Below are positions 18,055 through 34,289 of a DNA stretch of 48,997 nucleotides, piece after piece. The stretch is from Anaerolineae bacterium (lineage in GTDB: Bacteria > Chloroflexota > Anaerolineae > Aggregatilineales > UBA3940). Where the stretch lies: NCBI GenBank assembly GCA_016926255.1, contig JAFGOY010000007.1, positions 1 to 48,997 of the forward strand, written 5' to 3'. The notes below the pieces were generated by a model, which saw only the letters and a program-made list of their open reading frames with translations, was not told the origin of the DNA and did not search any database. Positions within the stretch are counted from its first letter, which is position 1, and every line of letters starts with the position of its first letter. A program made the position numbers and the translations under genes.

Positions 18055-19953
18055 TCAGCCGAAGTATTCGACGGGGATCATCGCCTCGTAGTCGACCAGC
18101 GAACCACCATCGAGGCAGCACTCGATGATCTGCCGCCCCAGCGGGTCGAGGTCCGGGTCGAGGAAATCGGGAAGACAGCGGCGGAAGAACTCATACAGAA
18201 TATCGGCTCCTGCGTCGTAGCCATCTTCGCCAACTTCGGGCTGGGTATCGACCTGAAGGAACCAGCGCGCCACCGAGCGGCCTTCCACGTGAAGCTGGTG
18301 GGCGGTGTAACCGAGCAGCGGGCAGCGGGCGGGCCGAAGTTGATCGGGCTTGAACTTCGCCACGCCGCGCCGCGACAGGTATTCACGGGCGATCCACTGG
18401 GCCATGAAGCCCACCCGCCACGCACCGATGTGCTGGTTAGGGCACAGGATGTGGCGGGTATCCTTGTAAGTGACGAACTGTTTCAGCAGCAGGTTGGCCT
18501 GCGGAACGCGCCGCCCGACGGCAAAGGGCCAGTAAGAGCCGACGCCCTCGCTTTTCATCATCCCGCCGGAGTCGACGATGCTGGGGCTGTTGTGGCCGCG
18601 CGGCGATACCAGCCGCCACAGCCAGGCCAGCGCGGGCGGCAGCAGGTGGAACATGCCGACGATTCCATAGCTCGGCTGCTCGCGGGTGCAGGGCGGCATC
18701 CGCAGGCCGAAGCTCCGAATATCGATGCTCACCGCCCCATCGACCACATTCGGTATCGTGCTGCGGGGGATTATGACACGGGGGTTGGGGCAGGGCTTGC
18801 CGGGGGCATCCTCGGTATGCTCCCAGATCAGCGCCCGGCTGCCCGGCTCTGCGTCGATGTTCAGAAAGAGCAGGGGAGTATTAGGCTGCGCGGTTAGGCG
18901 TTCGAGGTACATATCCGCCCCGTAGTAGTTGATGTGATTAACCCGCACGAACCACGCGTCCTCGGCGTCGGTGATCCTCGGCCTGCCGTTGCCGTTCTGG
19001 ATAGCGGGATGGAACAGCGCCATGTCGTCGATGGCCGGGTGAAGCTCGCAGCTTCGGGGGATTTCGAGGTGGCGCCTTTCGCCGGTAACGAGGTTCTCTC
19101 CCAGCAGCAGTCGGCCATCCGGTTCGCGGTGGGCCTGTTCGAGCATTTCGCTCTTACCGCCGCCGCTGGCCCCTTCATGCATGAAGGTGATCAGATTGTC
19201 ATAAGGCGTGACGACCTGAACCGCCGAGCAGTGAGTGGTGACCCACTCTTCGCGTTCGCCCAGATCGATCAGCATGCCATAGACGCCCTTCTTGGCGCTT
19301 GGCCCCGGATAGAGATTGAAGGCGAACATTTCGTAAAGATCGGGCTTGCGATTGTGGACGACGATTTGCTTCCCGTCGAAATGAGTATGGCGGAAGGGCG
19401 GTACGGCGTAGATCACCGCTTTGGGATCGAAACCTTCTTCTATCTGCTCGTAGGAGAGGATGCCCTGAAGCATCGCCAGCCCGAAGGCGAAGAAACCCGC
19501 GTTGGCAGGCACAACCGCCAGCACGTCGATCCCCATACCGGGCTGCCCGGCGATGAAGCCGAAAATCGCCAGTTCCTGCGTTTTCAGCCAGTCGATGGCC
19601 TTCTGCCGCACCGAATCGAAGGGCTGTCCGAAGCGCTCCTGATAGGTGGGCTTATTGGTGGGAAGATCGTCCCCGACGAGGAGGCAGTCCGGATCGCGCC
19701 GGCGCATGTAGGGTTCCGGGTAGTTGACCGACATCCCGTTACGCACCCGCACGACCGTCGCTTCGACAACAGGTTCGCGGTCGGGCAGATCGTAGACAAC
19801 CTTGAAACGGTTATATTTGGCGTCCCGGAACGTCAGGTCGAATAGATCGCCGGTCGATCCGGCGGTGACCACGTTCGGGCAGGCGGACAGGATATCGAAT
19901 GTCTCGGACGGCGAGTTGTATGATTTCCAGTTCAAAGCAGAATTTCCCCTCAT
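18055..19953 (-). CDS. DUF4914 family protein, PEP carboxykinase-like fold
   Basis: A 632-residue cytoplasmic protein. I take the ATG at 19953 (MRGNSALNWKSYNSP); the longer frame adds 41 residues of hydrophobic and Cys-rich, unlikely sequence. A P-loop-like motif GASGGGKSEM lies near residue 265, and FMHEGASGGGKS resembles the kinase-1a loop of PEP carboxykinases. Downstream come conserved-looking blocks PRVIIPRSTIPNVVDGA and GHNSPSIVDSGGM. The family's reaction is not established, as far as I know. It stands alone, with no tight operon partner. Confidence 0.7.
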   Translation of the reverse strand: MRGNSALNWKSYNSPSETFDILSACPNVVTAGSTGDLFDLTFRDAKYNRFKVVYDLPDREPVVEATVVRVRNGMSVNYPEPYMRRRDPDCLLVGDDLPTNKPTYQERFGQPFDSVRQKAIDWLKTQELAIFGFIAGQPGMGIDVLAVVPANAGFFAFGLAMLQGILSYEQIEEGFDPKAVIYAVPPFRHTHFDGKQIVVHNRKPDLYEMFAFNLYPGPSAKKGVYGMLIDLGEREEWVTTHCSAVQVVTPYDNLITFMHEGASGGGKSEMLEQAHREPDGRLLLGENLVTGERRHLEIPRSCELHPAIDDMALFHPAIQNGNGRPRITDAEDAWFVRVNHINYYGADMYLERLTAQPNTPLLFLNIDAEPGSRALIWEHTEDAPGKPCPNPRVIIPRSTIPNVVDGAVSIDIRSFGLRMPPCTREQPSYGIVGMFHLLPPALAWLWRLVSPRGHNSPSIVDSGGMMKSEGVGSYWPFAVGRRVPQANLLLKQFVTYKDTRHILCPNQHIGAWRVGFMAQWIAREYLSRRGVAKFKPDQLRPARCPLLGYTAHQLHVEGRSVARWFLQVDTQPEVGEDGYDAGADILYEFFRRCLPDFLDPDLDPLGRQIIECCLDGGSLVDYEAMIPVEYFG

Positions 19954-20141
19954 TACAAAAATTCCAGGGCAAAAGCACCCTGGCGAATGAAACCTGAATA
20001 TGTCGGCAGACACAACCGCTGCAAACAGCAGTCCGCCGGATATTACCGATGAGTATATCGCGCAATCAGGCCGCAATCGAAAAAAACATACGTAGAGCTT
20101 GTAAAATCGTCAATGCCCGCAACTGCCCGGCGAAGGGGGTG

Positions 20142-21614
20142 CTACAGAATGCCGGATTCCCGTGCGATTTCCACCGCCTCACCCCGATTTTTCGCCCCCA
20201 GCTTCGAATATATCTGGCTGGCGTACCATCTGATCGTATTGACCGAGAGGTACATCTCGTCGCCGATCTCCCGGCTCGACCGCCCCGCCGACATCAGCCG
20301 CAAAACCGCCACTTCACGGTCGTTCAGCGGCTCATCCAGCGTTTCCCCGCCCGACCCATCCGTCGACGCCTCCTTCGCGCCGAACGCTTCCAGCAGCCCG
20401 ACGGCCAGCCCTTCGCCTGATGGTAAACGTCGAGTGCGTCATACAAGGCGGTCTTCATCCCGCAGGGCTTCACCCAGACCGGTGTAGCTGATCAATGCCA
20501 GTGACAGGCTGCCGGTCTTCTTCGCGATCTTGATCGTCTCATGCAGACATGCTTTTGCTTCTTCGATCTGCCCCTTGATGCTCTCCGGCAGCCGCTCGAT
20601 CCACCGGATCACCAGTTCGTGGTTTTCATTCGTCAGGATGTCCGGGGCCAATCCTTCGATCAGATCAGCTGCCCGCGTGTAGTCTTCCGCTATCAATGTT
20701 ATAGTGCAAGGTGTCGCGCGGCGAGCCTTCCCGCTCAAACCAGTCCGCCGCCCGCCGGTAAAGTTCCGGAATGATATCCGGTTCCTTTTCATAAAGTTGA
20801 AGATTGAGGAATTTGGAAAACAGGTGGTGATAGCGAAACCATCGCTGATCGTTGTCCAGCGGCACCAGGAACAGGTTCGACCGATCGAGCTGCCGCAGGA
20901 TGTCTCGACTGTCCACATCCTCGACCAGTTCATCGCACAGCCCGGCACAGGATCGCTCCAGCAGCGATGTCCGCCGCAGGAATTTCTGCACCTCTGGCGT
21001 CTGCCGTGACAGCACTTCATCGACCAGGTAATCGGTCAGGAAGCGGTGACTGCCCGCAAACGCCTGTACGAACTCGGATTTATCGGCGGCGTTTTTCAGT
21101 GAGATCGCCGCCAGATGCATATTAGCAGGCAGGTTCTCGATCAGAAATTCTAACCCCTCATGAATGTCTGCGATGTTGACTTCGTGATAATCGTCCAGGC
21201 ACAGGATCAGGGGATCGCCCATTGCTGCGATTTCGTTGATCAGGTTAGTCAGAACCGCCCTGACCGGCGGCACAGCCGAACTTTGAAGCGCGGTCTGCGA
21301 CACTTTGCCAAGCGAAGCATCGACTGTTTGCAGGGCCGCAATCATATAGTTCCAGAATTGAACCGCCGAATTATCCCCGCTGTCGAGCGAGAGCCACCCG
21401 ATCCGCTCCCTGTAGCCATCGGGCAGTCCATTCGACAGCCACTCCGTCACCAGGGTCGTTTTGCCAAACCCCGCCGGGGCGGTGACCAGTGTCAACTTCC
21501 CCGTCAGGCTGTTATTCATGTGGTCCATCAGGCCGGTCGAGCAACCAGATTGAAACTGGCTCGCGGGATATGCAGTTTGGTGACAAGTACTGGTAGTGCA
21601 GTCTTTTGAATCAT
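20142..21614 (-). pseudogene. Broken MalT/LuxR-type ATP-dependent transcription activator
   Basis: Three frames rebuild one regulator. It starts at 21614 as MIQKTALPVLVTKLHIPR, then shifts frame near 21535 into LTLVTAPAGFGKTTLVTEWL (Walker A). The STAND ATPase core follows (LILCLDDYHEV is Walker B) to about 20700, where a second frameshift leads into IAEDYTRAADLIEGL. The helical repeats are then sharply shortened (ERLPESI joins KGQIEEAKACLHETI, an apparent internal deletion). A third frame contains the LuxR helix-turn-helix LNDREVAVLRLMSAGRSSREI to the stop at 20142. Intact relatives are about 850-900 residues; this locus encodes about 490. It is therefore non-functional unless the frameshifts are sequencing errors. 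Confidence 0.85.
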
Positions 21615-21664
21615 CTACAAACTTTCCGGCTATTGAGCAACCCGAATAATACATTCAGCCTCAA

Positions 21665-22010: not shown

Positions 22011-22553
22011 ATGGCCTACGTAATGCAGGTACGTGACAAAGCGACTTTAAAGCGCATCGATATACCCCCTCGCGGGATCAGTATCAGCGGATCAGGTGAG
22101 GTCCGGCCTGCAAGGAGAAACACTGCCGGGCGCAGACCCGTCATTCTGCCCTACCGTGACGTCAACGGGAGCCTTCATTATGCGCTGGTACATTCTCCCC
22201 GAACACCCTGCTATGTCAACGGGGACGACGTGTTGACCCTGCATTGTTTGAGTCACCGCGATTTCATTGTATGTGGTGAAACCGCGCTGTTCTTTGACTC
22301 GACCATCATTCCCCAGCCGGAGAGCCTGCCGGACGCCCACGAGGTTCCATGCGCCTACTGCCGTGGCTCAATACAACCGGGGAGCGGGGTGGTGTGCTGC
22401 CCGAACTGCGGCCTGGTCTATCACCATGACCACGATAACAGCTGCTGGTTAGCAAACAATCGCTGTGCATGTGGTCAAATAACAGACCTGGATCAGCGGC
22501 CCGATTGGATTCCATCAGGTTTTACACTGGAGGCTGCCGATGATGACGCATGA
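22011..22553 (+). CDS. FHA-like plus RING-type zinc finger protein, candidate E3-like factor
   Basis: A 180-residue protein opening the ubiquitin-like operon. Residues about 10-100 look like a small beta-sandwich ending in PCYVNGDDVLTLHCLSHRDF, reminiscent of the last strands of FHA domains. Residues 114-154 carry C114-x2-C117, C130-x2-C133, H138/H139, C145-W, C152 and C154. This fits a binuclear treble-clef RING of the prokaryotic type (CxxC...CPxCG...H...CW...C.C). Its stop overlaps the E1-like start by 14 bases. RING proteins beside E2 genes suggest substrate or E2 recruitment, an E3-like role (inference). It could instead be only a scaffold. Confidence 0.72.
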   Translation: MAYVMQVRDKATLKRIDIPPRGISISGSGEVRPARRNTAGRRPVILPYRDVNGSLHYALVHSPRTPCYVNGDDVLTLHCLSHRDFIVCGETALFFDSTIIPQPESLPDAHEVPCAYCRGSIQPGSGVVCCPNCGLVYHHDHDNSCWLANNRCACGQITDLDQRPDWIPSGFTLEAADDDA

Positions 22554-23685
22554 CTCGGCTGTCGCCGGGAGGCAGCGGCTCGTCCTGGTCGGTGTTGGCA
22601 CCCTGGGAAGCGCTGTACTGGAGATTCTCTGTCGAACGTTACTTGAACGACCGTTGCCTCCCGGAACGTTATTCACCATTACACTGGTGGATGATGATGT
22701 TCTGGAACCGCATAACATCGCCAAATCTGCGATCTATCTTCCATCGGATGTCGGCTGCAAAAAAGTCCACGCGGCCCTTTACTGGACGCGGCGACTGGGA
22801 ATTGACATCGATGTCGAGCCGATTGGCTGCCCCATTCAGGAAACTGGTGCGGGATTGTTCCTCGACGCGGCTGCTGTAATCTGTGCCGTCGACAACTATG
22901 CGGCGCGGATGTCCGTCAACCGTTCGGCGTGGCGCGCCGGGGTGCCGTATCTTTTCGTCGGCGGGCTGCAAGGCGGCGAATCCCGGTCGGGGCGGTATCA
23001 ACTGTTTATGCCGGGCGAGGATCAGCCCTGCGTGGAATGCGGATGGGGAACCGAGGAGTATGCCCTGCTGGAGCAGTCATTCAGCTGTACGCGCCGCCAC
23101 CAGCGCGGCCCGCGCACCGGACTGGCAGCGGCGATCCGGATCGCATCATTGATTGTCGACGAAGCGCTGGGAGCATTAACCGGGGCCTCCGAACTTGAGC
23201 CGGGAGAAGTCCGCTTTGACCCGTCGACAGGGTGCCGCCGCCTGTCCCTGCCACATAATCCAGACTGCAACTTCGATCACGCCCGGTGGGAAAACATCGT
23301 GTGGATGGAAGACCCCGGTCAGGCCTGCTCACTGGCCGATACCCTGGCACTGGCAGAGAGTCATCTGAACGGTCCGGTGGGAACCCTTTATCTGAACCGG
23401 CCTGTATCGACAGGCTTTACCTGCTCTCAAGGACACAACTGGCCAGAAATTGCGCGTGTCGGCCCTGACCTGCCCCCCACGCTCTGTCCGGTCTGCGGTA
23501 TGGACGGTTTCGCAACCGAGGTGGGCTGGCGGCTGCCGCGCCAGGTGGTGCTGTCCACTCCTGTACCGCTTCAAAAGATCGTTCCTGACTCTGGCGTTGT
23601 GGCCTGCGAAGCAGCCGATGCTGCTCAAACGATTCACATTGCATGCCGTTATTCGAAGGAGGGGATCAATGAGAATTCCCGTTGA
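22540..23685 (+). CDS. E1-like (ThiF/MoeB/UBA family) Ubl-activating enzyme
   Basis: A 381-residue adenylating enzyme. The Rossmann motif VLVGVGTLGSAV (15-26) is followed by the adenylation segment DDDVLEPHNIAKSAIY (51-66) and the AVDNYAAR helix start (about 116-123). Zinc-type cysteines are C164-x2-C167 with C232 and C243. C183 (FSCTRR) is a candidate catalytic thiol. The C-terminal 100 or so residues add C295-x3-H299 and C316-x2-C319, an extra zinc-ribbon-like unit not usual for ThiF. It presumably adenylates the C-terminus of a Ubl encoded in the same operon and passes it to the E2 gene product, whose start it overlaps by 17 bases. Confidence 0.85.
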   Translation: MMTHDSAVAGRQRLVLVGVGTLGSAVLEILCRTLLERPLPPGTLFTITLVDDDVLEPHNIAKSAIYLPSDVGCKKVHAALYWTRRLGIDIDVEPIGCPIQETGAGLFLDAAAVICAVDNYAARMSVNRSAWRAGVPYLFVGGLQGGESRSGRYQLFMPGEDQPCVECGWGTEEYALLEQSFSCTRRHQRGPRTGLAAAIRIASLIVDEALGALTGASELEPGEVRFDPSTGCRRLSLPHNPDCNFDHARWENIVWMEDPGQACSLADTLALAESHLNGPVGTLYLNRPVSTGFTCSQGHNWPEIARVGPDLPPTLCPVCGMDGFATEVGWRLPRQVVLSTPVPLQKIVPDSGVVACEAADAAQTIHIACRYSKEGINENSR

Positions 23686-24208
23686 TCGACTTCAGATTGA
23701 CATTGACGAGCTGGTTTCATTTGCCAGCCGGACGTCGGGCCGTCTGCAGATACTCCAGACGAACCGCAATCATGTTGTGTTGAGGCTGGCCTGCCGATCA
23801 GCGGTCAAGTCGCCGGAGGCTGCTGAGCCAACTATCGATGAGTATCAGCATGAACTGATGTTGGTAATCCCACCCGAATATCCCTCCGAACCGGTCCTGG
23901 TGCGACATATGAAACCCGTCGATATTTTTCATCCAAACATCGCTGGCGGAGCCGGTCTGGATAACCCGCTGATGCGAATACTGATAATGGGGCAGGTCTG
24001 TTACAGCGGCAGGCATACGCCGCAGAACACGCTGGTCAGCGTCGTCCTGCAGCTCTATGACATGCTGGGATACCGCTCTGGTCGCTTTTCTCGCTCATTG
24101 TCAGATTGTTTTTGCCCCGAAGCGGTGAAGTGGGCAAACCAATCACCGGAGCTTTTCCCCCTTGAACGCCGACCGCTCACAAGCGATAGGAAAAAGGGAT
24201 CATGTTGA
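23669..24208 (+). CDS. E2-like ubiquitin-conjugating enzyme (UBC fold)
   Basis: A 179-residue protein starting at 23669 behind a strong AAGGAGG site. It carries the UBC landmarks IPPEYPSEPVLV (67-78), IFHPNI (86-91) and GQVC with catalytic Cys111, then the helix TLVSVVLQLYDML. Between HPN and the Cys is an insertion (GGAGLDNPLMRILIM) longer than in eukaryotic E2s. The C-terminus is extended (DCFCPEAVKWANQSPELFP). It should receive Ubl from the E1 as a thioester and transfer it to a target, possibly with the RING protein. Overlap with both neighbours implies coupled translation. Confidence 0.88.
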   Translation: MRIPVDRLQIDIDELVSFASRTSGRLQILQTNRNHVVLRLACRSAVKSPEAAEPTIDEYQHELMLVIPPEYPSEPVLVRHMKPVDIFHPNIAGGAGLDNPLMRILIMGQVCYSGRHTPQNTLVSVVLQLYDMLGYRSGRFSRSLSDCFCPEAVKWANQSPELFPLERRPLTSDRKKGSC

Positions 24209-25050
24209 TTACCACGCAGCGCACTACCTGGACTGTATTCAGTGAAGCGGCGGCTGTGGCTGGCTTCAAGCTCGCACCCGCTCAGCAGGACCACATTCGC
24301 TGGCTGCAGGTGGGTGACATGGCCTTCCAGGTCAGCATGTCCCCCGATCTGACGCGGTATCGCCTGTCGTGTACGCTTGCCACGCAGCCGACTTTATCCC
24401 AGGTTCTGCGACAGGCGGGGCGCCAGTACCGGATCGTCCGGCCAGCCCTCCAGGAAGGATGCCTTTGCATACTGGTCGACCTTCCAGCATCCTCAGTCGA
24501 GGCAACCGCCACCGGACTGATTCAATTAGCAGAAGATCTGGCAGGGGGCCGGGCTGCCAGATCAGCCTCCCTTCCCGAACATGCGCGACATGCCGCCGCG
24601 ATCTTCCTTCAATCTCTCGCCTCAGCCTGGATCGTCCGCGACCCGGCTGGCACTTCTGTTCAATTCAGCCGACGGCCCGACGCCTCTCCGCTGCTGCCAG
24701 CGGCCTGCCAGCTGGAGATGGACGAACGCCTGATGGTGCTGCGCACCACGATTCGCCCGGCAAACCAGGATGTCGCCGTGCAGGTGAACCGCGCGCGGGC
24801 CTTACTGGTACTTCAGCTAAACGAGCTTCCGTATGTGCAGTCACACCTGACAAAGCAGGGCGAAGTTGGGATAGCCGCCGCCCTGCCCTCCGGCAGCGGT
24901 GATCACCTGCCGGTTATTTTTGATGACCTGCTCTTTGCTTACCGGCTGGGCAAGCAGGAGCTGTCAATAGCAGTTCAGGATACAGAACTGTCACGTTTAG
25001 TCGTACATATTTACGAGGAGGTTTTTAAGCATGGCAACACAAATGGTTGA
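24202..25050 (+). CDS. Unknown protein of the ubiquitin-like operon
   Basis: A 282-residue soluble protein with no family I can name. It seems to have two alpha/beta halves (about 5-115 and 125-275), each with a hydrophobic strand pattern (DMAFQVSMSP; CLCILVDLPA; ARALLVLQLNELPYVQ). The halves loosely recall YbjN or type III secretion chaperone-like folds. There are no metal or nucleotide motifs. It overlaps the E2 gene by 7 bases and the Ubl gene by 20, so it is a fixed part of the pathway. It may be a carrier or adaptor for Ubl or E2 (inference from position only). Confidence 0.7.
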   Translation: MLITTQRTTWTVFSEAAAVAGFKLAPAQQDHIRWLQVGDMAFQVSMSPDLTRYRLSCTLATQPTLSQVLRQAGRQYRIVRPALQEGCLCILVDLPASSVEATATGLIQLAEDLAGGRAARSASLPEHARHAAAIFLQSLASAWIVRDPAGTSVQFSRRPDASPLLPAACQLEMDERLMVLRTTIRPANQDVAVQVNRARALLVLQLNELPYVQSHLTKQGEVGIAAALPSGSGDHLPVIFDDLLFAYRLGKQELSIAVQDTELSRLVVHIYEEVFKHGNTNG

Positions 25051-25336
25051 ACTCAAGGTTCGTGCGGAGAACGGGCAGCGGGAAACCAGCCTGACCATCC
25101 CGGACACAACACTCTGGGCAGAAGTGGTATCGCTGGGTGTCGATGCACTGGGGTTGCCCACTGTCGATAAAACCAGCGGCGAACAGCAGATATACCACGT
25201 GTGGACACACCCTGAGGGAGAAGGCCTGCTCCAGGACGCTCCGGTCAGGGAGAAGGTCGTCAAGGATGAGGAACTCATGGTCGAGATTTTGCCCGAAATG
25301 AATCCTGCGAGAAACCCTGATGACCTGCATAAGTGA
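25031..25336 (+). CDS. YukD-like ubiquitin-like protein (beta-grasp)
   Basis: A 101-residue protein with beta-grasp order: strand (MVELKVRAENG), strand (RETSLTIPDTT), helix (WAEVVSLGVDALGL), strand (IYHVWTHPEG), then the typical late segment KVVKDEELMVEILPEM. The C-terminal tail (NPARNPDDLHK) has no Gly-Gly, so either it is trimmed, conjugated differently, or binds non-covalently. The preferred start at 25031 has GAGGAGG just upstream. It overlaps the JAMM peptidase gene by 17 bases. Confidence 0.72.
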   Translation: MATQMVELKVRAENGQRETSLTIPDTTLWAEVVSLGVDALGLPTVDKTSGEQQIYHVWTHPEGEGLLQDAPVREKVVKDEELMVEILPEMNPARNPDDLHK

Positions 25337-26324
25337 CGTCTCGTATGGGCTCATCCTGGCATTTTTCGATGAGCAGAACCAGTTGATCTACCGGACGGCA
25401 CTGGATCAGCATACTCTGCGCCGGTTCTGCCGATCCGCGCAGTTTGCTGGTTATCACACTACCGGACGGGATGGGTCGGATTGTTCGGTCACGGTATGCC
25501 CCGCTGCTTTCTGGCGGGGCAAACTTCCCAGCGTGTGCCTGGGTCTGGACGTGATCGTGCGCCAGAATGGTCACTGCTACAGCCGCGAACTACCAGTCGA
25601 ACGGCTGACAGTATGGGCAGAGGAAGTCCGCAGCCTGCTGATATCAGGCGGTGCGCTGGCGGCGAATCAGCGCTGTACCTGGTACCTGTTCGCCGTCAAA
25701 GCTGATCAGGTTGCCCAGGACTGTATCTTACAGCCGCCCATCCAGCTCCCAGGGCTGAAAGTCGTCCATGCGGAGCATCGCCCGGAAGGCCAACTACTGC
25801 ACCCGGAGCTGGAAGGGTTTACGACCACACCCTGCTATATCGCTTCCACTGCAATGAACGAAGCACTGGAATACTGCCGGGCCGATCCGGCCGTGGAACG
25901 CGGGGGCGTGTTCTATGGAGACTTATGCGCAGATGAGCAGGGACTGTTTGTGCGTGCCGAGGCTTTTATTGCGGCACAGGGTGCCCCTGCACATGTGAGC
26001 CAGATGCAGTTTGATCGAGCCGCGTGGGGCCATATCCTTGAACAACGCGCACAACGGGGGTTGAGCCACCTGGATACAGTCGCCTGGCTGCACAGCCATC
26101 CACGAGGTACAGCTGGGAGCGAAGACAAGCCAGAGTCACTGAAAACCGTCTCGACACAGGATACGATGATTCATTCAGACCATTTCCCCGATCCTCACCT
26201 CACGGCGCTGATCGTCGATCCTGAAGAGGAAGATCAGGCGCAGGCGGTGACCATCTGGGGCTGGGATCGATATGGGATCACGCTGCAGCAGCAGACGATT
26301 TATGTTACCGGAGAAAAGGTATGA
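25320..26324 (+). CDS. JAMM (JAB/MPN+) metallopeptidase with N-terminal extension, candidate deconjugase
   Basis: A 334-residue protein. The C-terminal half (about 165-325) is a JAB domain with the complete zinc site: E193 (VERGGVFYG), H258-x-H260 (WLHSHP), S278 and D281 (STQD). These residues cleave isopeptide or peptide bonds after Ubl modifiers in the family. The first 165 residues form an unassigned domain that might bind Ubl or E2. It starts inside the Ubl gene and ends in an ATGA overlap with the AAA+ gene, so production is probably stoichiometric. Confidence 0.85.
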   Translation: MTCISDVSYGLILAFFDEQNQLIYRTALDQHTLRRFCRSAQFAGYHTTGRDGSDCSVTVCPAAFWRGKLPSVCLGLDVIVRQNGHCYSRELPVERLTVWAEEVRSLLISGGALAANQRCTWYLFAVKADQVAQDCILQPPIQLPGLKVVHAEHRPEGQLLHPELEGFTTTPCYIASTAMNEALEYCRADPAVERGGVFYGDLCADEQGLFVRAEAFIAAQGAPAHVSQMQFDRAAWGHILEQRAQRGLSHLDTVAWLHSHPRGTAGSEDKPESLKTVSTQDTMIHSDHFPDPHLTALIVDPEEEDQAQAVTIWGWDRYGITLQQQTIYVTGEKV

Positions 26325-27901
26325 TGGAACGGCGCTCTAATTCTCGAACCGGAAGTGACGTACTGGAACGGCGCCCGCGCATTCCGCCCGCTTCGCCTGA
26401 TACCCCCGATGTGCTGGTAAGGCATCTCCATGATCTGGAGCAGGAAAACCATACCCTGCGCCAGGAAAACGAGATGCTCAAAATGCCTCCCCTCAACATC
26501 GCTGTGATCTGCGATCCGGCTTACGGAGGCAACGGAAATGGGCATACCACCGTGATGGTCAAGACACTGGACGGGAAGGCCTTTGTCTGCGGGATGCCGT
26601 TCTTTGGCGTCGATAACCTGGAGGTGGGCCGGACGGTATCACTCAGCCAGGCAGGTGCTATAGTCAGCCTGGGCGGACGGCTGCGCGGCTATGAGATCGG
26701 CAAGATCACCCAGATTCAACCGGAAACACACGAGGTGATGCTCGCCAGCCGAGAGGGAACCGGGGATCGGGAAACGATCCTGCTGCTCGCCGAATGGCTG
26801 CGGGGTACCCCGGATGTCAAGGTCGGCGCGCGGGTCGTCTACGATCCCAGCGTCCGCCTCGCCTGTATGGTTCTGCAAGATACGGACTCCCGGTCACAAT
26901 CCATCCTTGATGAAATCCCCCTTGACCTGACCTGGGACCACCTGATCCTCAACCCGAAAACGAAAGCTGATTTGCTCGACCTGTGGGATGACATCCTGCA
27001 CGCCAGCGAAACCGGCACCAACCTGCGCTTCATGGCAACAATTACCGGACCGCCCGGTACGGGCAAGACATACTGTGCCCGGGTGCTGGCCGCAGAACTC
27101 AGCCGCGAATACGGGCCGGACAAGATCGCCTGGAAGTTCATACAGGCCGCGGAGGTTGTCAGTTCCTTGCTGGGAAGCTCTGAAGCCGCCATCCGGGCGA
27201 TCTGGGCGGAAGTGCGCGCCAACAGTCAGAAAGGACTGCTGACCGTCGTGGTCTGGGACGAGATCGAATCCTGTTTCCCCCGCCGCGGCCAGCACGACAA
27301 CCTGTGGCCCAGCAGCCTGGTGAACACCATGCTAAGCGAAATGAGCGGCATCCAGCAGGTAGGAAATGTGTGTTTCCTGGCCTGCACCAACCGCGCCGAT
27401 CTCCTTGATGATGCTTTGATGCGCCCCGGACGGCTGGGCGCTCACGTGCTGCATTTTGGCCGCCCGGATTGGTCTGCCACCCAGGCGCTGTTCGATCTCT
27501 ATCTCCGGCAGGCCGAAGTAGACCTATCGGAATCACCAGAGCAGTTGTCGGAGCGTGCCGCGGCCTATATCTGGGCACCCAGGAACGAGGCGGAACGCCC
27601 GATAGCAACGGTCAAATTCCGCGATGGTTCCAGCGAGGTCGTGCCGCGATCAGCGCTGGTCAGTGGAGACCTGGTACGCGCGGCAGTGATGGACATCGCA
27701 GGGCGGGCGGTCCGGCGGCGAACACGGCACGGGGGCGACCCTGTGCTCCACTACGAAGACCTGTGCCAGGGTATCGATCAGATATATGAGGGCACGCAGT
27801 TGACCCGTCACAACATCGGCAGCTACCTGAGCGACTGGTCGCTCGAAAAGTGCAGCAATGTTGTCGATGTGGTAACAGGCGCAGCGCGCGGAAAGAGTTA
27901 G
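26321..27901 (+). CDS. ARC/Mpa-like AAA+ ATPase (proteasome-type unfoldase)
   Basis: A 526-residue ATPase. A short coiled coil (about 30-54, LVRHLHDLEQENHTLRQENE) and one or two OB-like beta domains (about 57-195) precede the AAA+ core. The core shows Walker A GPPGTGKT (243-250), Walker B VVVWDEIES (309-317), sensor-1 asparagine in CTNRAD (357) and the arginine segment MRPGRLGAH. This layout is that of bacterial ARC/Mpa and archaeal PAN. The C-terminus (ARGKS) lacks the HbYX tail that docks on 20S proteasomes, and no proteasome subunit is nearby. It likely unfolds or remodels Ubl-tagged proteins (inference). Confidence 0.82.
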   Translation: MMERRSNSRTGSDVLERRPRIPPASPDTPDVLVRHLHDLEQENHTLRQENEMLKMPPLNIAVICDPAYGGNGNGHTTVMVKTLDGKAFVCGMPFFGVDNLEVGRTVSLSQAGAIVSLGGRLRGYEIGKITQIQPETHEVMLASREGTGDRETILLLAEWLRGTPDVKVGARVVYDPSVRLACMVLQDTDSRSQSILDEIPLDLTWDHLILNPKTKADLLDLWDDILHASETGTNLRFMATITGPPGTGKTYCARVLAAELSREYGPDKIAWKFIQAAEVVSSLLGSSEAAIRAIWAEVRANSQKGLLTVVVWDEIESCFPRRGQHDNLWPSSLVNTMLSEMSGIQQVGNVCFLACTNRADLLDDALMRPGRLGAHVLHFGRPDWSATQALFDLYLRQAEVDLSESPEQLSERAAAYIWAPRNEAERPIATVKFRDGSSEVVPRSALVSGDLVRAAVMDIAGRAVRRRTRHGGDPVLHYEDLCQGIDQIYEGTQLTRHNIGSYLSDWSLEKCSNVVDVVTGAARGKS

Positions 27902-27906
27902 TTCTC

Positions 27907-28989
27907 ATGAGCGCACAGGATCAGGCAGCACGCTGGGCCGATCTCCGTTCACAGCAATCCCGGGTAAGTCGTAACTACCTGGAGAACAGGCGCAGCCGAC
28001 TGCTAATCAATCTTGAACGATTCTCCGTTCATATTGAGAAAATACTGCTGGAGGGATTCGGCGAAAAGACAGCGCCCGGCCAGACTATCAAACCGCGAAC
28101 CGAACTGGAAAAGCAGGTGTTTGCCTCCCCCTTCGTGAAATCCGTCAGCAAAAACAGGGGCGGCAGCTTATGGGTCAAAAGCCGAGCGATTGGCAAGGAT
28201 CGAGAGACCGCCACAACCTTCAGGTTGCTCCTGAAGCCAAATGAATCAGGATGCCAGATTGTCGATATTCGACGTCAAACGGGCAATAAGCCAATGTCAG
28301 AAGACTCTATGGATGGTTCATTGAAGCAAGCACAGATGATGCTGGAAGCCTCAGGGAATTTCCGGACCGTCATCGCATACGTGATTGCTGAAGGATTGGC
28401 CCACGACGACCCTACTTTACCCGGCGCTCCGCACCCCGATCGATCTGTCATACGCAGATTGTCACTCCTTGCCGCATCCTCGAATCCGGTATGGTCGATA
28501 GAGCTGGTCGAAACGTTTATGCATGGATCAATGTTTTGCCGCGATCTGGCACGGATTGATGAACTGCTGCAGAAACTCGCGGCAGTTCCTGAAAAGTCGC
28601 CAGAGGAATACAGGGCAGAGTATGAAAGGCTCTGCCAGCTTCCTCGAATCGAGTCTCTCACGGTCGAGGAACAGGAGATCAGGGCTCAGACCCGCTGCGT
28701 CTATCTATATGACAAAGAAGGCGTCCGAAGACAGATAGGCCGGTTCTGTATCACCATCGATACCGAGCAAGCCTGTGTTCGAATACACAACCTTGACCAC
28801 AAAATGGACCGCCACGATCACCCGCATGTCGTCGAAGGAAATCCCTGCTGGGGCAATATGAATCTTTTTCTGGCAAACAAAACACTGGAAGGTGCCTGGC
28901 CGGATGTTCTGATCCAGGCAGTCGAATTCGTGTTCTCTGTAAATCATGGGGATTGTTACTGCCCTGTGAGCAAGTTTCCGGCAGCTTAG
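27907..28989 (+). CDS. Protein with divergent E2-like C-terminal domain
   Basis: A 360-residue protein starting at 27907, five bases after the AAA+ gene. The N-terminal 260 residues are unassigned and partly helical. The C-terminal 100 residues follow UBC order: strands (CVYLYDKEG, FCITIDTE), then H305-P306-H307-x6-C314 (HDHPHVVEGNPCWGN), then GAWPDVLIQAVEFVFSVN, matching the HPN-x7-C and following helix of E2 enzymes. It ends with C350 and C352. This suggests a second, highly diverged E2 or an E2-like thiol transferase. The assignment is by motif and needs structural support. Confidence 0.55.
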   Translation: MSAQDQAARWADLRSQQSRVSRNYLENRRSRLLINLERFSVHIEKILLEGFGEKTAPGQTIKPRTELEKQVFASPFVKSVSKNRGGSLWVKSRAIGKDRETATTFRLLLKPNESGCQIVDIRRQTGNKPMSEDSMDGSLKQAQMMLEASGNFRTVIAYVIAEGLAHDDPTLPGAPHPDRSVIRRLSLLAASSNPVWSIELVETFMHGSMFCRDLARIDELLQKLAAVPEKSPEEYRAEYERLCQLPRIESLTVEEQEIRAQTRCVYLYDKEGVRRQIGRFCITIDTEQACVRIHNLDHKMDRHDHPHVVEGNPCWGNMNLFLANKTLEGAWPDVLIQAVEFVFSVNHGDCYCPVSKFPAA

Positions 28990-29014
28990 CCTGTTGAATA
29001 GTGGAGGTGAATCA

Positions 29015-29674
29015 GTGGCACATATCACAGACGATGATCAGGACAATACCTTTTCAACAGAACACCCGGCAGATCTTTCCCAGGAAAGCTGGAGAATACA
29101 TAAACCAGCGCTCAGTATTCCACCGTATCTCCTGGCCAGAATATTCGCCTATGCGGACACCTGCCTCGGCTTTGAAGTCAGCGGTTTTGGGCTGGTTGAT
29201 GTTTCAGATAATCGACGGCGAATTGTTGTCGAGGATGTATTTCTGCTCAAACAGCGGGTAACGACCAGCAGCGTCCATATTGAACCCGCCGATATGGCCG
29301 ATTTCCTGTCCCAGATGGTGACCCAGGGATACGACGTCGGTCGGCTGCGGTTCTGGTTTCACAGCCATGGCACCATGCCCGCATTTCATTCCGCGACGGA
29401 TATGGAGACGCTTCACCAAGCCCTGGGTAACGCACCCTGGTTTGTGTCGCTGGTCGTCAATAACAGCGGGCAGATGGATGCCAGACTGGTTGTCAACCAG
29501 CCGATAAAGCTCACTCTTAGAGACCTGCCCGTCATACTGCATATCGACAGCCAACAGCGGGCCGCAGCAGCCAGGGATGTGCTGAACCTGGTGACGTTTC
29601 GACGGTATGAGGTGGTAGATATCAATTCGCCGCAGTATGACCTTTCAGACAACGGCCACGGCTCAGGAGGTTAA
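29015..29674 (+). CDS. Second JAMM (JAB/MPN+) metallopeptidase
   Basis: A 219-residue protein. The GTG at 29015 is favoured by GGAGGTGA just upstream; a TTG eight codons earlier is possible. The catalytic set is E54 (FEVSGFGLV), H116 and H118 (WFHSHGTM), S126 and D129 (SATD), all present. It is shorter than the first JAMM and lacks its long N-terminal domain. The protein ends in GHGSGG, but those codons also serve as the ribosome site of the next gene, one base downstream. It probably processes or removes the ThiS-like Ubl made two genes later. Confidence 0.83.
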   Translation: MAHITDDDQDNTFSTEHPADLSQESWRIHKPALSIPPYLLARIFAYADTCLGFEVSGFGLVDVSDNRRRIVVEDVFLLKQRVTTSSVHIEPADMADFLSQMVTQGYDVGRLRFWFHSHGTMPAFHSATDMETLHQALGNAPWFVSLVVNNSGQMDARLVVNQPIKLTLRDLPVILHIDSQQRAAAARDVLNLVTFRRYEVVDINSPQYDLSDNGHGSGG

Positions 29675-29675
29675 T

Positions 29676-30353
29676 ATGCTGGACGCAACACGCCAGTTGG
29701 ATATCCTGCCCCCGGAGAAGCTGGGCAGCCGTCACGTTGATGTGATCGGGGTCGGGAGTATTGGTTCGTGGTTTTCGATGATCCTGGGAAAAACAGTCGG
29801 CGGGCAGCCTGATTTCACGGTCCGGCTGTGGGATGGCGACCGGCTGGAACCGATCAATCTCTGCTCGCAGCTCTACGAAGTTTCACAGCAGGGAGAGCTG
29901 AAAGTCGAGGCCATGCAGCATCTCCTGGCCAGCTTTGCAGGCGTGAAATCGGAGGTAAAGCCTGTCTACCTGGACGGCAGTCCGTCTCGCATGCTGAAAG
30001 ATATCGTCGTGGTAGCGACGGACTCCATCACATCGCGGCAGATGATATGGGAAAACCATATCGCTGATAACCCCGATATCACCTGGTTGGCAGATGCCCG
30101 GATGGGCGCGGAAAAAGGGACGATCCTGTTCATCCAGCCGCAGAACCTGGCTCACCGGGATTTTTATGAGCTGGGGTTGTTCCCGGAAGAACAGGCGTCC
30201 CCTGCCCCGTGCACGGCACGTGCGGTTTCCTACAACTGCAGCTTCGTCGCCTCGCTGGTGATGAGGAATATCGCCTGCCTGCTGCGAGATCAACCCGTCT
30301 TCCGCCGTATTGATTACGATCTGGAAGACTTCACGTTTATGGTAATCGATTAG
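29676..30353 (+). CDS. Second ThiF/E1-like adenylating enzyme
   Basis: A 225-residue minimal ThiF-fold protein. The start at 29676 has a CAGGAGG site. The Rossmann motif VDVIGVGSIGSWF (21-33) is followed by LWDGDRLEPINL (51-62), VVVATDSITSR (111-121) and LADARMGAE (138-146). C179 in PAPCTARAVSYN is a candidate thiol. There are no CxxC zinc pairs. Together with the ThiS-like protein 11 bases downstream and the JAMM upstream it forms a compact second activation cassette. Confidence 0.82.
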   Translation: MLDATRQLDILPPEKLGSRHVDVIGVGSIGSWFSMILGKTVGGQPDFTVRLWDGDRLEPINLCSQLYEVSQQGELKVEAMQHLLASFAGVKSEVKPVYLDGSPSRMLKDIVVVATDSITSRQMIWENHIADNPDITWLADARMGAEKGTILFIQPQNLAHRDFYELGLFPEEQASPAPCTARAVSYNCSFVASLVMRNIACLLRDQPVFRRIDYDLEDFTFMVID

Positions 30354-30364
30354 GGAGGAAAACA

Positions 30365-30643
30365 ATGGAGTCAAAGGGACGGACTATTCGCCTGTCACAA
30401 TCCGATCATTCTGCCGACGATCATCAGGTGGGTCAGATCGGCCATGCGACGATCATCATGCCCGGACGCACCGAAAGTGTCGAAGGGGGACGCACCCTGC
30501 GTGAAACGTTTGACACTCTGGGTATTGATATCAGACATGACTGGCTGGTCAGGGTAGGGGAAGAGGAAGTGAGCGATCTGTCACAGCGCGTTCTTCGAGC
30601 TGGCGAAGTGGTGACCGTGGTGGCCCGTGTCGTAGCGGGCTGA
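30365..30643 (+). CDS. ThiS/MoaD-like ubiquitin-like protein
   Basis: A 92-residue beta-grasp protein. After a polar 27-residue N-terminus come strands ATIIMPGRTE and SVEGGRTLRETFDTLGI (strand plus helix), then DWLVRVGEEEV and the typical ThiS/MoaD finish VLRAGEVVTVVARVVAG. The C-terminus is -VVAG rather than -GG. A strong GGGAGGAAAAC ribosome site precedes it. It is the last gene of the operon and presumably the substrate of the second ThiF. Confidence 0.75.
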   Translation: MESKGRTIRLSQSDHSADDHQVGQIGHATIIMPGRTESVEGGRTLRETFDTLGIDIRHDWLVRVGEEEVSDLSQRVLRAGEVVTVVARVVAG

Positions 30644-30669: not shown

Positions 30670-30703
30670 AAAAGTACGGGGCCGCGTTGCCCCGTACTTT
30701 ATT
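30670..30703. terminator. Bidirectional intrinsic terminator
   Basis: AAAGTACGGGG (30671-30681) pairs perfectly with CCCCGTACTTT (30690-30700), with A-rich and T-rich flanks on the two sides. It serves both the ubiquitin-like operon and the convergent NTPase gene. Confidence 0.92.
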
Positions 30704-30770: not shown

Positions 30771-33700
30771 TCAGGCAGCCAGGCGAAGAATGCGAAGCGG
30801 CTGCTCGATCAGTTCCGGATTCAACGGCTCCAGCAGCTCCAGCAATTGAAGCGGCTCATCGGTGCTGACCTCGCTGTACTGCCGTGCCTGATTATAAGCC
30901 GCAACAGCCAGGTCAATGTACGTGGTATCGCTGCCCATGTCACACAGCGCCCGGCCACAGTGAGCCAGACCCAGGGTAAACCCGGCATCCGGGAACCGCC
31001 CATCGTTGACAGCCAGCATTTGTTCGGCAAAACTGCAGGCCTCATCAAACGCCTGCTGCGCACGATCACCATCGCCAAGCCGGAGCTGTATCACACCCTC
31101 AATCGCGGCTGCCTGATGACGGTAAGGAACGACAGTATGCTCCCGCACCTTCCTGATGATATCGAGCGCGTTGGCCCACTCTTCCCGGTTCATGTACAGA
31201 CGTGCCAGGATCGTGCCCTGACGTTGATATTGACCCGGCACCGGCATCTCATAGTCTGGAAAGTCATGGGTATAGGGCAGTTTCAAGAACAGCTCCGGGA
31301 AGTCTTCACCGGGCACCTGCTCCTGCAGCTGGGCAGTCTCCTGAATGGCCTCCCGCATGGCATCCCAGGCCGCGGCATCGTCACCTTTCAACAGGTTTGT
31401 ATAAGCTCGTTCAGTATGCCGGACAACTTCCGACCATCCCTGGCTGGCATTGAGCTCCGTTTTGTGCAGTCTGAGAGCCTTATCGTAAGCCCCTTTAACG
31501 GTATAAGCCGCCGCCAGACAGTTTGTAAACCAGCTTACTTCCTGGTGTAAACGCAACTGCTTCGCGATATCCAGCGCACTGATATACTGCTCGATGGCCT
31601 CGCTAATCTCGCCCAGTGCCAGATACTGATTGCCCATATAAACCTGCTGAACGGCAACATTGCGAGTCGGAGGGCCAGAATACAGAAGAAACGAACTTCT
31701 GTGTTGTTCCAGGGCACGGATAAACTCGCCCTTATACCGGAATAAATGCCCCTGGCGGCTGTTCACCTCAGCGTGAACACTCTCAGTATTCGTTTCACCG
31801 GCAAGCTTCCGGATTTGCTCGTCGACTTCATCTGCCTCCTCGAAGTCTCCGTTCAACCTGTAAATGACCCCAACCTTGGCCAGACTGTGAAACTTAAGGC
31901 GAGCGCTTTTATCGATGTGTCCGGCGGCTTCCAGCGCGCGGTGGGCGGACTCGAGCGCGTCATCAATACGCATCTGCTGGTGGTATATCCGAGCCAGTCC
32001 AAGGAATATCTTATATTCCAGCACCCTCCGCTCATAGCCCTCGTTCAAATGCTCGGTCAGCATTGCAGCATCATGGAAGTATTCACATGCCCGGCTCAGG
32101 TTACTCTCGCGAGAATTACTGCCGTTAGTTTCAGGATGAGCGGCGGTTAAGTAAGCCAGTTTCATGAAGGCAAAAGCCTGGGTTTTTATATCGCGCTCCT
32201 GCTGCGCCTCCACGATAACCTTTTCAAATTCGTCGATTGCCTCTCTGTACTTACCCTGCATGGACAGCAGGTGAGCGTGCCGGCTCATCAGGCTGGCACC
32301 CCGCCCGGGCCCCAGCGCTTCATCGGAGAGCTTGAGAATCATGTCATACAGGTTTGAAAAGGTCTCAATAAACCCCCACTTTATCAGCGGGCTGTACGTC
32401 AGATCGAGATACAACTGAACCGCCTGATCATACTGCTCGGCCTGAAGGTGAAGATAGAAGGCTCGTACCTGAGGTATGGCATCCGCTGCTGACCGCCACT
32501 GCTGAACGTTTATCTGCCGTTCCTCGTAGTAAGCAGCCGCACGGCTTGAAATATCAGCGAAAACCGAGGGCCGTTCCTCCAGGAACTTTTTGCGGATGCG
32601 TTCTTTAAAGAGTGGAATGAGCTCAAACTCTTTGCCAAACGGCGAATCAGATTCCGAGACAGTCACCAATCTGTAGTCTACCAACTCCGAAAGAGCCAGG
32701 CTGACCTCTGCCTCTCGATAGTAGGAGGGCCGCAGATGGACAATAAGGCCTTCCGGTGCGGCCACATCTAGAACCGCCAGACTATCGATCACGCACTTGC
32801 GCGGACCGGGAAGATAGCTGTAGTGCCGGTCAACAAGCTCATCCTCCTTCTGCTCCCTGACATACGCCATTATCTCCTGAATGGTCGCGCCCTGGCCTGA
32901 CTGACGACATTGCTTCCACTGATCGACAAAGTGCATAAGCAAGAAAGGTTTTCGGATAGCCTGCCTTACGAGGTCGCGCAGCACCTCTTCGTCTTCATCC
33001 TTCAGCCCGTACGTACCGTCTGGATCAAAGAAACGGAGAAGTTCAACGCCTTCCTCTTCGGATAATTCCTCCAGTTTTACTTCCTTCACCGAGTTGACCG
33101 TCTCGCAGCCCATCGTCAGGCGACGGGTGGAAGTCATCAGAAACCTGGGAGATATTTCCTCAGAGCGCAAGCAGCTAAACAGGAACTCGGCAAATAGACT
33201 GAAGGCATCTTTGAACTTGCCTTCTTCGGTCAGCAATTCATCGACATGGGTAACAATGATGAGATAGTTATCCCGTTCCAGAGCTTTGCGTAACGCATGT
33301 ATCTTCTCCTCTGGATCCTTCTGATAATCAAAAAGCAGTTCGCGCAGCCCGGGAGGGTCTCCCCTGCTGTGCAGACAGGCCCTGTATAACCTGTTCATCA
33401 GGCTTTCGCTGGTCTCGTCGCCCGGCCTTACATTCTTCAACTCATCCTTCAGAACTTCACCTGACACGGTAATTTGCCCTGCATCCAGTGACATATCCTC
33501 TGGATATTCATCGACCTCGGCGTCTTGCCATCGATCAGGCGGTTTTTTTTTAGGTTCTTTGCCGGACTCGTCGCGATGCTTAATTTCTATCGAGATGATC
33601 CCGCTCAGGTCGTTGCGTTCCCCATCAGTTGTCCAGTAACCATTCAACAGGTCCTTAGCCAGTTTGCCAACAGCGGTACTCTTCCCGATCAACGGCTCGC

Positions 33701-34289
33701 CGACAACGACGACAATCGTAACGCCATTTCTAAGGAGCTGCTCCATTTCCTTTCGTTTGTCCTCGCGCCCGATTTCGTGATCGGTAAGGGGAAGTTGATC
33801 GCCGTAAATCCGGGGTTTCTCAAAAAACAGGTCGTGTAGTATCCGGTCGACGTCCTCTTCGGAACACGAGGCTGCACGCAGGTGATCGGCGACCCATTCC
33901 TGGTCCATTCCCTTAATGGAAAACCAGCGAGACATGGCCTCAATCTCACCAAGTATTGAGACAATGGGCGCGTCCTCTCTCCTCCAATACTCGATCGTCG
34001 ATCCCGGATCCTCTATTTTTTTCTTCTCATTCTCAGTTGGGGGTCTGATACTTTCGCCCAGATCCTTTTGAAGAACAGCTATTTTTTTATTTGTTTCTCG
34101 CTTAATCCGCCAGAGTGCGGTATCAAGCATGGCTTTCCAGAGCCTTTTCCTGTAAAATGTGGTAATATATCGACTGTGCAGGTATGCTTTCCGGAAGCCT
34201 GCGTCATCGACGCGCTTCTTTAATTCATTGTACGGCAAAGAGAGTATATTATCCGCATCGTCATTATTAGACCCGTTATCCTCACCCAT
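30771..34289 (-). CDS. STAND-type NTPase with TPR repeats
   Basis: A 1172-residue soluble protein. About 1-165 is a charged helical region of unknown fold. The NTPase has Walker A GEPLIGKST (197-205) and Walker B YLIIVTHVDE (342-351), a highly charged insertion (about 240-300) and a following helical/winged-helix region (about 400-560). The C-terminal half (about 590-1130) is TPR-like helices (FAFMKLAYLTAAHP, EYKIFLGLARIYHQQMRIDDALESAHRALEA in part). STAND proteins are switches that assemble on sensing a ligand, and many serve in bacterial immunity. It converges on the ubiquitin-like operon, shares its terminator and lies inside the same repeat-bounded island. A linked role is inferred, not shown. 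Confidence 0.78.
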   Translation of the reverse strand: MGEDNGSNNDDADNILSLPYNELKKRVDDAGFRKAYLHSRYITTFYRKRLWKAMLDTALWRIKRETNKKIAVLQKDLGESIRPPTENEKKKIEDPGSTIEYWRREDAPIVSILGEIEAMSRWFSIKGMDQEWVADHLRAASCSEEDVDRILHDLFFEKPRIYGDQLPLTDHEIGREDKRKEMEQLLRNGVTIVVVVGEPLIGKSTAVGKLAKDLLNGYWTTDGERNDLSGIISIEIKHRDESGKEPKKKPPDRWQDAEVDEYPEDMSLDAGQITVSGEVLKDELKNVRPGDETSESLMNRLYRACLHSRGDPPGLRELLFDYQKDPEEKIHALRKALERDNYLIIVTHVDELLTEEGKFKDAFSLFAEFLFSCLRSEEISPRFLMTSTRRLTMGCETVNSVKEVKLEELSEEEGVELLRFFDPDGTYGLKDEDEEVLRDLVRQAIRKPFLLMHFVDQWKQCRQSGQGATIQEIMAYVREQKEDELVDRHYSYLPGPRKCVIDSLAVLDVAAPEGLIVHLRPSYYREAEVSLALSELVDYRLVTVSESDSPFGKEFELIPLFKERIRKKFLEERPSVFADISSRAAAYYEERQINVQQWRSAADAIPQVRAFYLHLQAEQYDQAVQLYLDLTYSPLIKWGFIETFSNLYDMILKLSDEALGPGRGASLMSRHAHLLSMQGKYREAIDEFEKVIVEAQQERDIKTQAFAFMKLAYLTAAHPETNGSNSRESNLSRACEYFHDAAMLTEHLNEGYERRVLEYKIFLGLARIYHQQMRIDDALESAHRALEAAGHIDKSARLKFHSLAKVGVIYRLNGDFEEADEVDEQIRKLAGETNTESVHAEVNSRQGHLFRYKGEFIRALEQHRSSFLLYSGPPTRNVAVQQVYMGNQYLALGEISEAIEQYISALDIAKQLRLHQEVSWFTNCLAAAYTVKGAYDKALRLHKTELNASQGWSEVVRHTERAYTNLLKGDDAAAWDAMREAIQETAQLQEQVPGEDFPELFLKLPYTHDFPDYEMPVPGQYQRQGTILARLYMNREEWANALDIIRKVREHTVVPYRHQAAAIEGVIQLRLGDGDRAQQAFDEACSFAEQMLAVNDGRFPDAGFTLGLAHCGRALCDMGSDTTYIDLAVAAYNQARQYSEVSTDEPLQLLELLEPLNPELIEQPLRILRLAA

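Follow-up and report, generated by a model that had tools for sequence, protein, structure and literature searches.

A putative composite protein-tagging operon of Anaerolineae in which two ubiquitin-like cascades are combined with an ARC-like ATPase

How is an operon to be interpreted in which most classes of the ubiquitin machinery are encoded twice, together with a proteasome-type ATPase? This question is raised by a locus of an Anaerolineae bacterium, located in the window, i.e. the whole stretch of 48,997 nucleotides (nt) of contig JAFGOY010000007.1 that was analysed here. The calls of open reading frames (ORFs) on the window show eleven collinear ORFs on the plus strand at 22011-30643, in the order RING protein, E1a, E2, gene 4, ubiquitin-like protein 1 (Ubl1), JAMM1, ARC-like AAA ATPase, gene 8, JAMM2, E1b and Ubl2. 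The classes E1, E2, Ubl and JAMM are each present twice, the second E2 being the E2-like gene 8. Six of the ten gene junctions overlap by 4-20 nt each; the other four, all between genes 7 and 11, comprise gaps of 1, 5, 11 and 25 nt, with 5 nt separating genes 7 and 8. A Shine-Dalgarno-like stretch was observed at most of the eleven starts, and a strong intrinsic terminator, consisting of a 12-bp stem and a T tract, lies downstream of gene 11 (30671-30700, plus strand). An earlier interpretation of the letters (the sequence-only reading) had described eleven genes in one plus-strand run with mostly overlapping junctions, which is borne out by the ORF calls, the measured junctions and the single terminator past gene 11. 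Its count of two Ubls, two E1s, one E2, one E2-like protein, one RING protein, two JAMM peptidases and one ATPase was exact, with one gene left unassigned, and its statement that every class of ubiquitin machinery is present agrees with family searches, relatives and motifs. Altogether, we assign a probability of about 55% to the reading that this is a composite operon for reversible protein tagging, combining two Ubl cascades with an ARC-like remodelling ATPase.

Considered singly, the proteins provide modest evidence, and several of their Pfam matches lie below the curated cut-offs. Pfam showed no family match for Ubl1, Ubl2, gene 4 or gene 8, and Rfam none within the operon. Since the single-protein scores were weak (UQ_con 7.7e-4 for the E2, Prok-JAB just 0.07 for JAMM1), relatives were collected, and these make the predicted class assignments firm. 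Catalytic motifs are seen in both E1s, the E2, gene 8, both JAMM peptidases and the ATPase.

The RING protein (gene 1, 22011..22553, 180 amino acids (aa); all genes of the operon lie on the plus strand) matches Prok-RING_1 (Pfam, 1.5e-5) and carries a C-terminal RING of the form C114-x2-C...C-x2-C-x4-H...C-x6-C-x-C with all eight ligands, preceded by a presumably FHA-like N-terminal region. The following E1a (gene 2, 22540..23685, 381 aa) shows a GxGxxG motif at 18, a catalytic Cys183 and a C-terminal zinc-ribbon-like CxxxH..CxxC, and matches ThiF with 2.5e-23 (Pfam). Cys183 is invariant across 10 aligned relatives, and compared to structures the family profile matches UBA7/UBA1 (UBA7 with 3e-41). 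For the E2 (gene 3, 23669..24208, 179 aa), the HPNI at 88 and the catalytic Cys111 are likewise invariant across 10 relatives, and the family profile matches UBE2K with 1.4e-13. JAMM1 (gene 6, 25320..26324, 334 aa) comprises an HSH at 258 followed by SxxD and shows similarity to the JAMM peptidase of the related locus L011 (E 1e-7).

A search with the single E1a sequence found relatives within the window's own order. Searching with an alignment gave 449 loci from named genomes, and the 80 best ones were inspected. These 80 originate from Planctomycetota, Chloroflexota, Bacteroidota, Nitrospira, KSB1 and others; in the majority of them Ubl, E2, E1 and JAMM genes are adjacent, and many include a RING. 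Judged by these relatives, genes 1-6 are a divergent member of the bacterial RING/E1/E2/Ubl/JAMM operons, with which they share the Prok-RING_1 domain, the E1 cysteine, the HPN and cysteine of the E2, the JAMM peptidase and the YukD-like Ubl. The window differs from these operons in a Ubl1 without the AG, a very divergent E1a, and the additional ATPase and second cascade. Three Bacteroidota loci (L125, L144, L157) encode a related E1 together with a distantly similar E2, but their neighbours differ; one of these neighbours, about 800 aa long, weakly matches a RING family. In the phylum of the window, Prok-RING_1 was matched in 51 of 400 sampled genomes, 27 of which exceed the curated cut-off. 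Since RING-containing Ubl conjugation operons of bacteria have already been described (Burroughs et al. 2011, as far as reported via PMC7159879), the RING itself is not novel, although the sequence-only reading had listed it among the features that go beyond simpler known operons.

For the ATPase, a group of relatives points to a conserved context. In the window's own order, the loci L011-L014 (f87) and L017 (f83) each encode an ATPase of the ARC type (about 830 aa in its complete copies), a Dop/PafA homolog, a small Pup-like protein and a second PafA homolog, followed by RING and E1, all in one operon, with E2, a gene-4-like gene, Ubl and JAMM downstream in most of them within the limits of the contigs. 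A homolog of the RING protein occupies the equivalent position in all five. In L013, Pup_ligase was matched with 3e-140 and 1e-103 (Pfam) and the ATPase matched pup_AAA with 1.6e-146. By shared contigs, L011 was equated with RFIM01000270.1 (isolate J076) and L012 with CALKXH010000066.1 (Anaerolineae bacterium); two further entries, L149 and L145, are the same contigs. The same combination of pupylation and RING/Ubl genes was found in Chloroflexi bacterium OHK40 (L132), so that it occurs in three lineages, two in the window's order plus OHK40. Because these relatives join an ARC-type ATPase to RING, E1, E2 and Ubl genes, the ATPase of the window has a conserved context.

Neither Pfam and NCBIfam nor the genome search with PF05639 recognised the Pup candidates of these operons, which are assigned by position and by ends such as RQETGQ/E, or RQIGGE in OHK40. 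No 20S proteasome was matched in the six order relatives with the joined operon, OHK40 lying outside this test. Pup ligases occur in 39 of the 400 sampled genomes of the phylum, spread over five families of the sample. Since e.g. the genome G229 has its Pup ligase and RING matches on separate contigs, the joined operon is not a general rule. In the literature searched, which did not cover Burroughs et al. 2011 itself, no report of joined pupylation/RING-Ubl operons was found. These operons raise the question whether two unrelated tagging chemistries share one ATPase, and they are possibly of greater interest than the window itself. OHK40 additionally seems to encode two Ubl fusions, one with a CHAT/caspase-like domain (by eye; L132:12689-14404) and one with a JAMM peptidase (L132:14385-15239); in each, an AG motif marks the point of fusion.

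Compared to the pupylation-linked operons (L011-L014, L017, L132), the window shares the ARC-type ATPase, RING, E1, E2, YukD-like Ubl and JAMM, whereas those operons comprise Dop, PafA, a Pup candidate and a YVG pore loop and do not contain genes 8-11. In the E1a tree, the window groups with the pupylation-linked clade with weak support (79/97), and since its own branch is extremely long, the grouping is only a hint. Gene 4 (24202..25050, 282 aa) belongs to no assigned family and showed no Pfam match. The gene at its position in L013 matches YbjN with 1.2e-6, and gene 4 may, like the equivalent gene of the pupylation-linked operons, encode a YbjN/CesT-type protein in tandem arrangement. Homology to that YbjN-like gene was not significant in a profile comparison, and the predicted model of gene 4 was of low confidence (predicted local distance difference test, pLDDT, 42.7) and thus unusable for a fold search.

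Two losses distinguish the window from these relatives. The first concerns Ubl1 (gene 5, 25031..25336, 101 aa), a YukD-like protein which is similar to the Ubl1 of L011 (E 0.002 in a small set) and whose relative in L013 matches YukD with 7.7e-12. Among 65 Ubl1 relatives, 64 carry P-x-[VIMT]-[VT]-A-G at or near the C-terminus, and the sole one without this tail is an ORF cut by a contig edge. The Ubl1 of the window ends in PEMNPARNPDDLHK, without the conserved (V/T)AG tail that marks the YukD-like Ubl of RING-type operons and without any glycine among its last 20 residues. Some Ubls carry extensions past the glycine which are trimmed by JAMM enzymes. Since the tail of Ubl1 holds no glycine to trim at, such a trimming is implausible here, and judged by its sequence, conjugation of Ubl1 by the usual route is improbable.

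The second loss concerns the ATPase (gene 7, 26321..27901, 526 aa). It matches AAA with 6.9e-24 (Pfam), and its best NCBIfam model is pup_AAA with 3.4e-39 over residues 31-488, at 134.9 bits compared to a cut-off of 504.75. Walker A, Walker B and the RPGR are intact. Pore loop 1, however, reads LLG, while all nine reference ATPases of the alignment show YVG or FVG, so that the aromatic-hydrophobic-Gly feature of the ARC/Mpa proteasomal ATPases is absent. The C-terminus GAARGKS also lacks the GQYL-type tail, which docks Mpa on the proteasome. For the 20S proteasome (PF00227), no match was found in the window's own genome (96% complete) or in seven relatives, while the control search matched in 10 of 14 genomes. 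A Pup ligase (PF03136) was not matched in the window's own genome either, and PF05639 reached just 0.07 there, below the cut-off, i.e. no convincing Pup. Pupylation in this genome was consequently rejected for the missing ligase match, and proteasomal degradation for the missing 20S genes, which excludes it so far as the predicted gene content of a 96% complete assembly shows.

Genes 8-11 have different relatives. Gene 8 (27907..28989, 360 aa) comprises a UBC-like C-terminal domain (about 230-360) with HPHV...C314WG and has a homolog in the locus L167 (1.5e-8). The structure prediction that had been proposed for checking the operon was run on gene 8 and gave a confident model for residues 230-360 (pLDDT about 90 or more) with a UBC-like fold, whose 50 best structural neighbours are all E2 enzymes (Z 5.8-6.5). 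Foldseek showed no match below 1e-3 with this model. JAMM2 (gene 9, 29015..29674, 219 aa; GTG start deduced from the ribosome-binding site) carries an HSH at 116 followed by SxxD and matches Prok-JAB with 2.4e-5 (Pfam) and its homolog in L167 with 1.9e-14. For E1b (gene 10, 29676..30353, 225 aa; GxGxxG at 25, CTAR with Cys179), ThiF was matched with 1.3e-10 (Pfam) and the homolog in L167 with 7.9e-32; Cys179 is invariant across four aligned relatives. In the genome G219 of another family of the phylum, an E1b homolog (1.9e-29) adjoins homologs of gene 8 (1.5e-8) and JAMM2 (1.9e-14) and a Ubl of 69 aa ending in KGG. Ubl2 (gene 11, 30365..30643, 92 aa) is by family a ThiS/SAMP-like beta-grasp protein ending in VVAG, while its homolog in L167 ends in KGG; its family profile falls into the SAMP2/ThiS/MoaD group (PF1061 2.6e-11, SAMP2 1.2e-10).

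Counterparts of this cassette occur in viral sequences. E1b relatives occur in crAss-like phages with JAB and ThiF genes adjacent. While a search of viral contigs with E1b alone found nothing, its alignment with three relatives matched 63 viral contigs (IMG/VR). All four families were found together on 17 of the examined contigs, two of which look identical. The viral cassettes show the E2-like motif HPHV...CWG and ThiS-like Ubls, most of which carry two adjacent glycines at the C-terminus or close to it. Genes 8-11 correspond to this arrangement in having the four families adjacent, the E1 cysteine, HPHV..C, HxH..SxxD and a Ubl with a terminal Gly; they differ from it in that Ubl2 stands last and the cassette lies behind a RING-type operon. 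Viral contigs commonly carry such a cassette of Ubl, E2-like, JAMM and E1 genes (IMG/VR loci L170-L234), and one of them, L234, combines a two-repeat Ubl with a pair of E2-like genes. The operon type 6d, reportedly described by Iyer et al. in 2006, is offered for comparison with the virus-type cassette. Among 154 genomes of the order that were searched, gene 8 appeared in the window's genome alone, so that genes 8-11 were probably acquired. A plasmid origin was considered and rejected, as gene 8 had no match in plasmids and the E1b matches there were weak and covered at most half its length.

Accordingly, where the sequence-only reading had seen one pathway, the relatives show two cascades of different origin, a bacterial RING-type one and a virus-type one. 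The gene-order search that it had suggested found each half separately, in bacteria on the one hand and in viral contigs and G219 on the other, but the full combination nowhere. Both cascades together with the ATPase were seen in none of the other genomes searched (best 80 of the 449 named loci inspected, metagenomes outside the search). The parts are thus known, and the novelty lies in their combination and in the kinship with the operons that join pupylation and Ubl genes.

For the composite tagging operon, the following course can be proposed. Since Ubl2 ends in VVAG while the tail of Ubl1 is lost, Ubl2 is taken as the usable modifier of the operon and is likely its active tag. E1b would adenylate the free C-terminal glycine of Ubl2, which would pass via Cys179 of E1b and Cys314 of gene 8 to a target, and JAMM2 would remove it again. 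The RING-type set (genes 1-3 and 6) would derive from a separate operon which formerly used Ubl1, and would now either handle Ubl2 too or take another modifier. Targets may be brought in by the N-terminal region of the RING protein, and the ATPase may act on tagged proteins by remodelling or extracting them, but would not pass them to a proteasome. Conjugation, enzyme pairings and the role of the ATPase are all inferred here. The resemblance of VVAG to the (V/T)AG ends of the Ubls in RING-type operons suggests that E1a, E2 and RING may also use Ubl2, but similar ends are frequent in ThiS/MoaD proteins. Several observations weigh against the composite reading. The branch of E1a corresponds to 10 changes per column, and an Arg kept in 9 of 10 aligned sequences is a Lys in the window. 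Furthermore, the structural match of gene 8 reaches Z values of just 5.8-6.5. Ubl2 alone gave no significant single-sequence family match (best PDB 0.031), and its predicted assignment rests on its relatives.

A comparison with known systems sets the operon apart. Bub and Bil share Ubl, E1, E2 and JAB enzymes with the window, and the E1a family profile matches the Citrobacter BubCD with 3.5e-11. However, BubCD is one E1-JAB chain, as judged by the name and length of its PDB entry, whereas E1 and JAMM of the window are separate ORFs. A noncanonical (non-lysine) Ubl linkage is a feature of the Bub pathway. The Bil system has neither RING nor ATPase, and BilA holds two Ubl domains (PMC11354881), in contrast to the short single chains Ubl1 and Ubl2. 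The PADLOC model BilD matches E1a only at 2.8e-8. By its predicted architecture, the operon is neither Bil nor Bub, and it is not a pupylation system. In Ca. Caldiarchaeum subterraneum, an E1/E2/RING/Rpn11 operon whose Ubl matures to a Gly-Gly end was shown biochemically (PMC5654768). As in the window, a full E1-E2-RING-JAMM set is found there at one locus; this system is archaeal and comprises one cascade.

A possible, though doubtful, extension of the composite reading would be a swap of the modifier. In an operon lineage that formerly combined pupylation with RING-type tagging around an ARC-type ATPase, Pup and the Pup ligases would have disappeared, Ubl1 would have been inactivated as a modifier, and a Ubl2 cascade of viral descent would have been incorporated. 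If true, two E1s and two E2s would converge on a captured viral tag.

Equally unlikely, in our estimate, is that two independent systems merely adjoin in one transcript, i.e. a decaying RING-type part (genes 1-7) and a captured virus-type part (genes 8-11) with no functional link. The different relatives of the halves, the lost Ubl1 tail and pore-loop aromatic and the very long E1a branch would fit such a decay. The restriction of gene 8 to the window among the genomes of its order would fit as well, as would the short gaps without overlap between genes 7 and 11, unlike the junctions upstream. Nonetheless, no reading frame is interrupted and E1a, E2, RING and JAMM1 retain their catalytic residues, which is not expected under decay. 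Moreover, genes 7 and 8 are just 5 nt apart and a single strong terminator follows gene 11.

Improbable, to a still greater degree, is a defence against phages or mobile elements, in which viral proteins would be tagged in a Bil-like manner by a cassette captured from the invader and turned on it. Ubl conjugation operons of the Bil type and of the CBASS (cyclic oligonucleotide-based antiphage signaling system) type are immune systems (PMC13373217, PMC11354881), and cassettes like genes 8-11 are common in viruses. A protein of 1172 aa with a STAND/NACHT-like ATPase and TPR repeats is convergent with the operon (30771-34289, minus strand), which could also point to defence. On the other hand, PADLOC gave only generic E1 and AAA matches and no fitting model, and no tRNA gene or GC (guanine-cytosine) island was found at the locus, where integrases were not searched for. 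In addition, phage protection by the Bub operons, near biochemical relatives, is not demonstrated (PMC13373217). Very improbable, finally, is the complete tag, untag and unfold pathway of the sequence-only reading, in which the ARC-like ATPase with its intact Walker and Arg-finger motifs would unfold Ubl-tagged proteins for degradation, since the tail of Ubl1, the pore-loop aromatic (now Leu), the GQYL-type end and any 20S or Pup ligase match are missing.

In the composite reading, the locus can be regarded as a natural experiment in the assembly and rewiring of ubiquitin-like systems, with one modifier tail-less and a proteasome-type ATPase that has neither the aromatic pore residue nor a proteasome to serve. 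Just upstream of the operon, a MalT-like AAA_16 regulator (20439-21654, minus strand) is apparently frame-shifted into two overlapping ORFs. The window also encodes a DUF4914 protein (18055-20076, minus strand), matched with E 6.8e-301, which is faintly similar to phosphoenolpyruvate carboxykinase.

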